A stretch of 64,000 bases of DNA from Candidatus Gastranaerophilales bacterium. GTDB taxonomy: Bacteria > Cyanobacteriota > Vampirovibrionia > Gastranaerophilales > Gastranaerophilaceae. Made by a program: the position numbers and the translations under genes. Under the pieces are notes generated by a model that was not told the DNA's origin, searched no databases, and worked only from the letters and a program-made list of their open reading frames with translations. The stretch is from positions 1 through 64,000 of the forward strand of contig CALVEM010000003.1 in NCBI GenBank assembly GCA_944326605.1. Reading direction: 5' to 3'. How positions within the stretch are numbered: position 1 is the first letter of the stretch; each line of letters starts with the position of its first letter. This document shows, one piece after another, positions 12,094 through 47,398 of this stretch.

Positions 12094-12164
12094 TTTTATT
12101 TGTAAATTTTTATTAATTAATAGCAAATTTTTTTATTTTAGTGTTTCATCTATTCAGGAGAAGT

Positions 12165-15149
12165 ATGATGATAAATAAAATTACTGCGGGTTTTGATAAA
12201 GTTCATTATTTTAAAAATTATTTGTATTCGGATAATAAATCGAATAATAAGCTTACGAATACAACTTATACAGAAATTCCTGCAGGTATGACTATGAATT
12301 ATTTTGTTCCGTTTGGTGCAAAATCTTCTTCCGGCACAAAGCCCGCTCCGAAAATGTCAAAACTTGAGAATATCATGTATTACTCGGATACCCCAACAAA
12401 AAAATTGATAGCTAATTTGAAAAAAGATGCTTTGGATAATGGGTTTAAAAATGTTACTACTCTGCATGTTATAAGACATTCGCTGACCGAACTCAATGAG
12501 TATCTTGCTAAGCTTGATTCCGGCAAGGTGGATTTTAATGACTATAAAGATAGACCGGATACTGCTGAAGTTATTATAGAAGCTATACCGTCAAATATCT
12601 TCAGGGATACTGATTGCCGAAATTCTTTGAAAAAAATTTTAAAGAATAATATAACATCCATTGATACAATTTTAAAGTATTATAAAAAAGATACAGCAAG
12701 CTGTCTTGATGATATTACGCTTACAGAAGATTTAACTGATGCAATCTGGGCAAATAGAAAAGAAGATGAGCCGATTGATACTGCCAAATTTATATTGGGA
12801 GCAATTAACAGTCCTGATGAAATTACATCTGATTTTGTTGAAGATATGTTTAATGAAATTTCAGAGCTTTCAATGCAAAATCATACTCCCGAGAATAAAC
12901 GTACCCCTTTCAGCGTTTACGAAAAGAAAGCTGAAAATATTTTGAAAAACATTTCACTGGGAACAAATATTCTCTTAACTTTTGATCCTGCAAAAGAGGT
13001 TCCTCAGCCTTTTATTGATACTTTTTCTATGATTGTTAGAAGAAGCGGAAAAAATTATTCCTTAACCGAGTTAAATGATACTGCTACACCTGATTATTTT
13101 AAGCTTGTTGTAAATAAATTAAGCAAAGATAAATCAAAAGAACATATAGTCATTGCAAATCCTGTCAATATGATAGTCGCAGGACAAATGACCATGGATG
13201 AGGATGGTAAAGTTGCAATCGGTATACCGAATGATTTTTTGCAAATTATAGCTAATCCGCCATCTAATGTAAAATATCTGTTTTATTCAACAAAGGATAA
13301 TTATTATAACTTATCGGCTAGTTCAAATCTATTTTCTGATTTTGAAGAAGCCTCTTTGCCGCCTTTATCAACTATGCAGATGATTAAGTCTTTTAAAGAA
13401 AATCCAACTTTGATGGAGGGTATTCAAAAACCATTTTCTAAAAATGCTTTGGAAAAAGCAATAGAAGCATCTGTGCAGCTTGACGGTGTTTTTCCTGCTA
13501 AAACAATAAGCCTTATGAAGAAAATTGTAAGTTACTATATTGATAAAAAAGATATTAATGAAGCTGATGTTTCAAATTATTTGAAAGAGGCAACAAATTT
13601 ATTTAAGAAAGCCGGTGATGACAGTTCAATTGTAATGTCTTTTGATACAGGGAAAAAATTGAGTGATCTTATCGGAAAAAGTTCTACCAAAAAAGAAGCT
13701 GCTTCTATTGTAAAGCAGATACGTTCAAATAAGATGGGAACAAAGGGGATTATAATATATTCTCAGGACGGTTCTCCCGGCAGCGGCAGAAGATATACAG
13801 CAAAAGCAATAGCAGGTGAGGCAAGAGTGCCTTACATTGAAATTAATACTATGGATTTTGGGACAAAAGATGTTGATATTTTCGGGGGGGGGGCACTCTC
13901 ACCGGAAGCTTCCATAAAAAAATTGTTCTCAATAGTGAACACTCAGGCAGAAGCTAACCCTAATAAATCTGCTGTTCTTTTCATTGAAAATTTTGAATAT
14001 TTTTCGGTCGGCGAGCTTGTTTCAAATTATCATCAAAAGGCAATGGCTCAACTTTTGAGAGAAATGGATAAGGCGGATAATGCAGGTTTGAATATTCTTG
14101 TTGCAGGCTCTGTGTCTAATCCTGCTCTTATCGGTGAAGCGGCAATGAAATCATTCAAATTTGTTGATAATATTGAAGTATCATCTCCGGCATATAATAA
14201 GGGAGAAAGAGCTGAAATTATCAGGCAAACTTTAAAAGATGAAAGAATAAAACTCACAGGTGACAGCAAGTCACATCAAAATATAATTGACGCTGCAGCT
14301 AACATAACTAACGGATTCCCTTATATTTATTTAAAAAATCTTGTCAAAAAGGCTAAATCAGTAGCAATGGAAAGAGGACATAAATCATTGACAAAAGCTG
14401 ATTTTACTGAAGCATACTTACAAATAACAACAGGGAGGCCTGCTGCAAATCATATAGAAGATCATGAAAAGCGTGTTGTAACTTCTCATGAGTGCGGGCA
14501 TGCAACAAATCTTGAGGTTATGAATAATATTGCAAAAACCTTAGGAAAACCATGGCATATACCGGACAAAGTTAATTTTATAACTCTTGATCCGAGAGGT
14601 GTCTATGGCGGAGCTGTATACCACGGTAAAGACAAAAACAGGGAAATGTCTTTTGAAAATATTTTTGCTTCTATTGTTTGCTCTTTCGGCGGAAATTCAG
14701 CCGAAAATAGATTTTTTGGTATGGATGGCTCATTAGGAATAAGCGGCGATATGGAGACTGTGAGGTATTATGCGGATTTAATGGTAAAATCCTTTGGAAT
14801 GGGAGCAAATACCGGTAAAATGGTTATAGAAGAAAATGAGGAATTGTCAGAAAATTTAAAATCATTAATAGAAAAAGATGAAAGAGTGATTATAAATAAT
14901 GCTAAGATAGTTTCTGATTTGATAACAGAAGTTTATTCGGATTTTAATAAGGGATTTACCGCAAAATATGCACCTCTTGTCGGAACTGGGGAATGTATTC
15001 TTGACGGTGATGATTTCAGAAAAACACTGAATGAATGGAAATCACAGCAAACACCTGAAAAACAAAAAGAATTAAAGCTATGCGATGAGGTGATTAGAAA
15101 AGTTATTGAGGCGACAAAAAAAGGTATTGCAGTAAAAAAAGACCAATAA
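12165..15149 (+). CDS. FtsH-like protein: degenerate AAA+ module with intact M41 peptidase site
   Basis: A 994-aa protein starting after CAGGAG. Residues 1 to about 500 are unrecognised and show no clear membrane helix, unlike FtsH. From about 530 the order follows FtsH, but key ATPase residues are lost. Walker A is GSPGSGRRYT (Lys-Thr replaced), Walker B reads VLFIENFE where FIDEID is expected, and the region of the arginine fingers reads KSFKFVDN. The pore-loop region (FVG in FtsH) is FGGG, encoded by ten consecutive G at 13884-13893. The peptidase part keeps HECGH at about residue 775, and a downstream SGDMETV supplies the expected Asp ligand. A metalloprotease with a non-hydrolysing AAA module is the best reading. 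A one-base change in the G tract in either direction would stop translation within about 30 codons. Confidence 0.75.
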   Translation: MMINKITAGFDKVHYFKNYLYSDNKSNNKLTNTTYTEIPAGMTMNYFVPFGAKSSSGTKPAPKMSKLENIMYYSDTPTKKLIANLKKDALDNGFKNVTTLHVIRHSLTELNEYLAKLDSGKVDFNDYKDRPDTAEVIIEAIPSNIFRDTDCRNSLKKILKNNITSIDTILKYYKKDTASCLDDITLTEDLTDAIWANRKEDEPIDTAKFILGAINSPDEITSDFVEDMFNEISELSMQNHTPENKRTPFSVYEKKAENILKNISLGTNILLTFDPAKEVPQPFIDTFSMIVRRSGKNYSLTELNDTATPDYFKLVVNKLSKDKSKEHIVIANPVNMIVAGQMTMDEDGKVAIGIPNDFLQIIANPPSNVKYLFYSTKDNYYNLSASSNLFSDFEEASLPPLSTMQMIKSFKENPTLMEGIQKPFSKNALEKAIEASVQLDGVFPAKTISLMKKIVSYYIDKKDINEADVSNYLKEATNLFKKAGDDSSIVMSFDTGKKLSDLIGKSSTKKEAASIVKQIRSNKMGTKGIIIYSQDGSPGSGRRYTAKAIAGEARVPYIEINTMDFGTKDVDIFGGGALSPEASIKKLFSIVNTQAEANPNKSAVLFIENFEYFSVGELVSNYHQKAMAQLLREMDKADNAGLNILVAGSVSNPALIGEAAMKSFKFVDNIEVSSPAYNKGERAEIIRQTLKDERIKLTGDSKSHQNIIDAAANITNGFPYIYLKNLVKKAKSVAMERGHKSLTKADFTEAYLQITTGRPAANHIEDHEKRVVTSHECGHATNLEVMNNIAKTLGKPWHIPDKVNFITLDPRGVYGGAVYHGKDKNREMSFENIFASIVCSFGGNSAENRFFGMDGSLGISGDMETVRYYADLMVKSFGMGANTGKMVIEENEELSENLKSLIEKDERVIINNAKIVSDLITEVYSDFNKGFTAKYAPLVGTGECILDGDDFRKTLNEWKSQQTPEKQKELKLCDEVIRKVIEATKKGIAVKKDQ
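13884..13893 (+). repeat. G10 homopolymer inside the FtsH-like gene
   Basis: Ten G in a row, flanked TTC-G10-CACTCTCACC. At this length the reading frame continues through GGGALSP. With 9 or 11 G the shifted frames stop at TAA within the next 75 bases. Confidence 0.9.
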
Positions 15150-47035: not shown

Positions 47036-47398
47036 ATGAAAATTCAAAATATTAATTCTGTTAATTTCGGAAAACATCCTGTAACCAGAAAAGTTGAATC
47101 AGGCGAAGAGGATTTCATTTTTCTAAATCAGTCTGATAAGTTAACCGTTATTTATGATATGCTCTGCGAACAGAAAGATTCTTTGAAAAGTTTATCAGAC
47201 CGTCAGTATGACAGACACAGTGCGTTGAAAAGTGATTTAAAAACTTTATCTTTAAATCAGAAAAAGATGCATGATTTTAATAAAAATGCATTCGATTATT
47301 TAGTATTTTATTCTTTTGAAAATTCAAAGGATGCTAATATTGTTTATGATAAAATTTGGCATCAATATAAAAATAACAAGCTTGATATAATAGGTTAA
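47036..47398 (+). CDS. hypothetical protein with N-terminal NFGK motif, 120 aa
   Basis: A 120-aa soluble protein beginning MKIQNINSVNFGKHPVTRK. The N-terminal I-x-x-(V/I)-NF-G-K type motif is one I associate with many proteins of gut Melainabacteria. The rest is helical and charged, with a likely coiled coil (residues 40-85). AAAGGAG precedes the ATG and the gene is 11 bases after dnaX, so probably co-transcribed. It overlaps the convergent Memo-AMMECR1 gene by 4 bases. Function unknown. Confidence 0.6.
   Translation: MKIQNINSVNFGKHPVTRKVESGEEDFIFLNQSDKLTVIYDMLCEQKDSLKSLSDRQYDRHSALKSDLKTLSLNQKKMHDFNKNAFDYLVFYSFENSKDANIVYDKIWHQYKNNKLDIIG

Follow-up and report, generated by a model that had tools for sequence, protein, structure and literature searches.

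AAA proteases are defined by an ATP motor coupled to a protease, and one gene of a member of the Gastranaerophilales, an order of gut bacteria, raises the question of how such an enzyme could work once its motor residues are gone. The gene lies at 12165-15149 (+) of the window, by which we mean the whole 64,000-nucleotide stretch of DNA analysed here, and encodes a protein of 994 residues, in whose translation the motifs GSPGSGRR (residues 536-543), FIENFE (606-611), HECGH (775-779) and D862 are found. A first-pass annotation had described the product as a soluble FtsH-like protein with a dead-looking ATPase and an intact metalloprotease site, preceded by 500 residues of unknown nature. The features of the locus are as follows.

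12165..15149, + strand: whole gene, predicted Hsp100-FtsH chimera and pseudo-ATPase M41 protease (994 aa; homologues in ~117 of 383 genomes of the order)
12156..12160, + strand: AGGAG ribosome-binding site, 4 nt before the ATG at 12165
12165..12344, + strand: residues 1-60, disordered leader (pLDDT < 50 over 1-60)
12297-12320, + strand: NYFVPFGA, a lineage motif in the leader (pattern in 59 of 78 members)
12360..12680, + strand: residues ~66-172, Clp N-domain-like helical region (ClpC profile matches; full-span ClpC/ClpB structural matches)
12867..13610, + strand: residues ~235-482, Hsp100 NBD1-like AAA domain lacking Walker A and B (VIA Z 18.0 to Hsp104 NBD1)
13632..14435, + strand: residues ~490-757, FtsH-type AAA domain with the hydrolysis residues gone (Pfam AAA; Z 20.9 to FtsH AAA 1iy2)
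13770..13793, + strand: degenerate Walker A GSPGSGRR, R542 in place of Lys (Arg in 78/78 clade members)
13980..13997, + strand: degenerate Walker B FIENFE, N609 in place of Glu (Asn 73, Lys 3, His 2 among 78)
14148..14159, + strand: arginine-finger positions, here K662 and K665 (alignment columns)
14448..15044, + strand: residues ~762-960, M41 metalloprotease domain (Pfam M41; Z 30.6 to 3kds_F over 495-956, including the AAA domain)
14487..14501, + strand: HECGH zinc site (H, E, G and H each in 77/77)
14748..14750, + strand: D862, third zinc ligand position (Asp in 77/77)

Structure prediction of both halves, which the first-pass annotation had suggested, gave an Hsp100-like N-terminal and an FtsH-like C-terminal half. 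In the latter, Pfam recognised an AAA domain (43.3 bits, cut-off 21.2) and the M41 domain PF01434 (55.4 bits, gathering score 29.9), and phmmer matched the protein to FtsH crystal structures at E 5.5e-23. Residues 485-961 of the model superpose on FtsH, and residues 495-956 align with apo-FtsH 3kds_F over 414 residues (Z 30.6, 4.5 Å), as expected for an AAA plus M41 fold. The score against the FtsH equivalog TIGR01241 was 117.8 bits, below the curated cut-off of 600, and the Walker A Lys, Walker B DE pair and arginine fingers of that family are missing. The full-length model reached a pLDDT of 82 and a pTM of 0.47, so that its domain arrangement is tentative and a ring of such subunits conjectural.

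To place the substitutions, we used an alignment of 108 proteins, comprising 78 pseudo-ATPase members, 17 relatives with an intact Walker A and 13 canonical FtsH. The canonical FtsH of the same genome (L001) reads GPPGTGKT, FIDEID and RPGRFD, and it is on these functional columns that the substitutions fall. The Walker A Lys is Arg in all 78 members of the clade and Lys in 17/17 intact relatives and 13/13 FtsH, while the catalytic Glu, present in 13/13 FtsH, is replaced throughout the clade (Asn in 73, Lys in 3 and His in 2). The two arginine-finger columns mostly hold Lys, and the Walker A Thr/Ser, sensor-1 Asn, Walker B Asp and both finger arginines are all lost or variable. G539, G541 and R542 are invariant and are preceded by a three-residue insertion just before the P-loop; the residue after R542, the position that should hold Mg2+, varies freely, and the pore-loop phenylalanine is retained in 46 of the 78 members. 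By contrast with the motor, the H, E, G, H and D of the zinc site are all invariant in the 77 members that cover it. The motif losses read by the first-pass annotation (Walker A without Lys, Walker B without its DE pair, here EN, and the arginine-finger region, correctly for the arginines themselves) are therefore borne out across the clade, as is the survival of HECGH and the downstream Asp. An alignment slip masking a Lys or Asp was rejected, because the columns agree between canonical FtsH and the intact relatives and hold no other invariant Lys or Asp; a functional residue supplied from elsewhere, which that annotation had named as a finding that would overturn it, was likewise not found in the alignment.

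The first-pass annotation was right that the first 500 residues lack a membrane helix: the maximum 19-residue hydropathy in the whole protein is 1.13, against 2.71 in the genome's canonical FtsH, and an FtsH-like membrane helix is found in none of the pseudo-ATPase members. It had also called this half unknown, which no longer holds. A profile of residues 60-494 built from 52 members matches ClpC over the N-domain and the NBD1 lid (E 1.7e-9), and profile positions ~11-52 match ClpC N-domains, with E down to ~1e-9 for the whole chain; Pfam Clp_N was matched, with weak E, in 3 of the 52. The AlphaFold2 model of the N-terminal half (pLDDT 92, pTM 0.86) retrieved ClpC, Hsp104, ClpA and ClpB first in Foldseek, and VIA-align placed it on Hsp104 NBD1 5vy8_A with a Z of 18.0 over 229 residues (2.8 Å), establishing the NBD1 fold, and on ClpC1 8a8u_A with a Z of 16.8, values for ClpB being similar. 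Full-span structural matches to ClpC and ClpB begin at residues 13-18 of this model. The Walker A and B motifs are absent from the NBD1-like domain, with TFDPAKEVP at the P-loop place and IVIANP at that of Walker B, and since this domain lacks them too, neither AAA domain of the protein can plausibly hydrolyse ATP, as far as its sequence tells. No Hsp100-type NBD2 follows, its place being taken by the FtsH-type AAA and M41 domains.

The protein thus resembles ClpC with the second ring swapped for an FtsH AAA-M41 unit. It shares with ClpC, ClpB and Hsp104 the NBD1-like AAA fold and, probably, an N-domain-like region, but its NBD1 has no Walker motifs and its second ring is of the FtsH type, with an M41 domain of its own. 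With FtsH it has in common the AAA plus M41 fold and HExGH with the downstream Asp, whereas it lacks the membrane helices and the Walker and finger residues, and has gained the Hsp100-like half.

Genome-wide searches found a pseudo-ATPase homologue in ~117 of 383 sampled Gastranaerophilales genomes, a figure that rests on a manual tally of the matches. Within the window's genus it is carried by 12 of 33 genomes, and the named records are mostly Candidatus Gastranaerophilales MAGs. At a strict threshold, among 292 genomes of the phylum, the homologue occurs only in the window's own family; a wider occurrence in the phylum was rejected, strong matches being restricted to the order-level relatives sampled. 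Two members come from MAG records titled Clostridiaceae and Acinetobacter (L049, L057), labels that are probably wrong, since both nest within the Gastranaerophilales clade. In four copies (G182, G200, G217 and G317) the reading frame is broken or interrupted by internal stops, so some species are in the course of losing the gene.

In a tree of 106 rows, built with a quick method and midpoint-rooted, a fully supported branch (SH-aLRT 100) separates 77 pseudo-ATPase members from 16 soluble relatives that retain Walker A and the 13 canonical FtsH. Because the more distant soluble relatives retain a normal FtsH ATPase, the loss is derived. The Walker and finger substitutions are real and arose once, in a single clade, within which, judged from the aligned residues, they are old and uniform. 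The first-pass annotation had proposed searching relatives for the same substitutions, which recur uniformly in the 78 aligned members, and had reasoned that homologues with ordinary Walker motifs could expose a decaying copy; such homologues exist, only outside the clade. Ten close pairs gave overall dN/dS values of 0.05-0.14, and of 0-0.07 for the AAA domain (canonical FtsH, 0.04-0.05), so that the family is under purifying selection and the disabled FtsH-type AAA domain, where the ratio is lowest, is its most constrained part. Of the original reading, a soluble M41 protein with a dead motor and a kept protease site thus stands, as a combination fixed throughout a large clade that is under purifying selection, and the view of the N-terminal half gives way to an Hsp100-like one.

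The soluble relatives from the order (L018-L020, L022, L128, L139 and L140) also lack a membrane helix and share a layout of leader, degenerate AAA-like segment, AAA and M41, and L018-L020 match ClpA, as does the Hsp100-like half of the window protein. They differ in an intact Walker A and a shorter N-terminal part, and most retain Walker B and the arginine fingers, unlike the window protein. As L018-L020 combine FtsH ATPase motifs with a ClpA match in the N-region, the Hsp100-FtsH fusion is probably older than the loss of the FtsH ATPase. L022, L139 and L140 keep Walker A but have Asp in place of the Walker B Glu and no finger Arg, which may be a second, incomplete loss of the motor. A second soluble M41 group (L129-L136, ~725-770 aa), whose ATPase motifs are intact and whose N-terminal half differs, occurs in genomes of the window's family, often beside the pseudo-ATPase form.

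In the window the gene stands alone, with infC and a YbaK-type tRNA-editing gene upstream and glycosyltransferase-like genes (named from their translations) downstream on the opposite strand. An operon partner was rejected, the neighbours varying between clades and the gene itself being the sole element common to all loci, and so was a defence role, PADLOC giving no match for the window protein. The genome retains an ordinary 640-aa membrane FtsH, its sole other M41 protein, together with two ClpP and with ClpC and two ClpB, whose Walker motifs are ordinary, and the 994-residue protein is therefore an addition and not a substitute. Lon_C gave weak matches in ORFs of 477 and 507 aa (G000:C8:56340-56591 and G000:C5:107221-107478), and as these are the only ones, the genome seems to be without an ordinary Lon protease. 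Another gene (L163 1285-2646; G000:C3 ~127.8-129.1 kb), directly upstream of a tilS-like gene, encodes a 453-aa protein made almost throughout of some six Clp_N repeats, with no ATPase. Finally, a short N-terminal pattern of approximately M-K-I..N.. followed by VSFKA, VNFGK or LSFRG starts unrelated proteins of the order as well as the pseudo-ATPase family (window 12297-12320 and 47036-47398; L162 657-1400; L110 6229-7476; L138 1489-1998; L105 6836-7636; L060 8411-11107). It is denser in the first 60 residues than beyond, much of the count coming from pseudo-ATPase family members, and may serve across the lineage as a motif for sorting or interaction.

Since neither AAA layer has its hydrolysis residues, while the FtsH-type layer is strongly conserved and the protease site strictly so, a motor-free degradation chamber is the simplest reading. 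We infer, with a rough probability of 0.55, a soluble M41 zinc protease, most likely located in the cytoplasm, in which the AAA domains serve as a non-hydrolysing scaffold and gate of an ATP-independent chamber for unfolded proteins. Both the Hsp100 NBD1-like and the FtsH-type domain, having lost hydrolysis, would be fixed in this role, the Clp-like N-domain would recruit substrates or adaptors, and the ring or chamber would admit already unfolded or loosely folded proteins to the zinc sites without ATP, so that in working principle the protein would stand to FtsH as LonC does to Lon. Some observations count against this reading: the copies with internal stops; the pore-loop phenylalanine of 46/78 members, which may mean that some threading is left; and the invariant GxGR P-loop, which exceeds the needs of a mere scaffold and may hold a bound phosphate or nucleotide.

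This last point leads to a less likely alternative, in which the Arg P-loop would bind a phosphorylated ligand (ADP, ATP or another) but not hydrolyse it, binding opening or closing the protease. Such a sensor would account for the constancy of G539, G541 and R542 beside a freely varying Mg2+-holding position and for an AAA domain that evolves slowest within the protein, and the LonC hexamer indeed binds six nucleotides without hydrolysis (PMC3391209). Against it, the loss or variability of the Walker A Thr/Ser, sensor-1 Asn, Walker B Asp and finger Arg, and the insertion before the P-loop, make ordinary Mg-ATP binding look unlikely. We regard as rather improbable a composite in which a two-layer Hsp100-FtsH fusion has abandoned ATP in both layers and its invariant-Arg P-loop would sense ADP, ppGpp or polyphosphate to gate a cytoplasmic, motor-free M41 chamber.

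It is also possible, though rather improbable, that the protein is a regulatory subunit of mixed rings in which a partner AAA protein (canonical FtsH, ClpC or another) hydrolyses ATP and gives the power stroke. Canonical FtsH is found in nearly every sampled genome of the order, the N-terminal half is ClpC-like, and mixed rings of active and inactive FtsH occur in chloroplasts (PMC9020784, PMC8197885). However, the window protein lacks the FtsH membrane helices, the only other M41 protein of its genome is the membrane FtsH, no conserved genomic partner was seen among the compared loci, and the FtsHi subunits show the opposite pattern, losing the protease. That motor and protease are both inactive, in a pseudo-enzyme or decaying paralogue, is very unlikely: the patchy distribution in the genus and the few copies with stops would fit, but the five zinc-site residues invariant in 77/77 and the dN/dS of 0.05-0.14 do not, and on conservation and dN/dS we rejected decay. 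An unorthodox working ATPase borrowing a Lys or Asp from elsewhere, to which the invariant P-loop Arg might point, is highly improbable, the invariant AAA residues including no other Lys or acidic pair near the pocket and the catalytic Glu being substituted in 78/78.

For the motor-free chamber that we favour, the closest precedent is LonC (MtaLonC), an AAA protease that, like the window clade, lost the motor and kept the protease. It has no ATPase activity, binds nucleotide, is hexameric and, without ATP, degrades proteins that are unfolded but not those that are folded (PMC3391209), a mode of action shown there and proposed here. LonC is a Ser-Lys Lon protease unrelated to M41, with only one AAA layer, whereas the window protein is an M41 protein with no Lon domain. 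The chloroplast FtsHi are FtsH paralogues in which, as in the window clade, one of two activities is lost; they lose the zinc site (PMC8197885), whereas the clade keeps HECGH and loses the motor, and the first-pass annotation had aptly called them the reverse case. In the open-licence literature we found neither an FtsH-type protein described as combining an intact protease with a fixed dead ATPase nor a Clp-FtsH fusion, and no paper on Gastranaerophilales AAA proteases.

The FtsH family is described as membrane-anchored (PMC8943139), and against this the protein would be a soluble, Clp-fused FtsH. If our reading is true, a natural M41 clade that dropped the motor, with the remainder under strong selection, would be the second independent case after LonC, and would allow a direct test of whether, ATP consumption aside, the FtsH AAA layer is needed for folding, assembly and gating.
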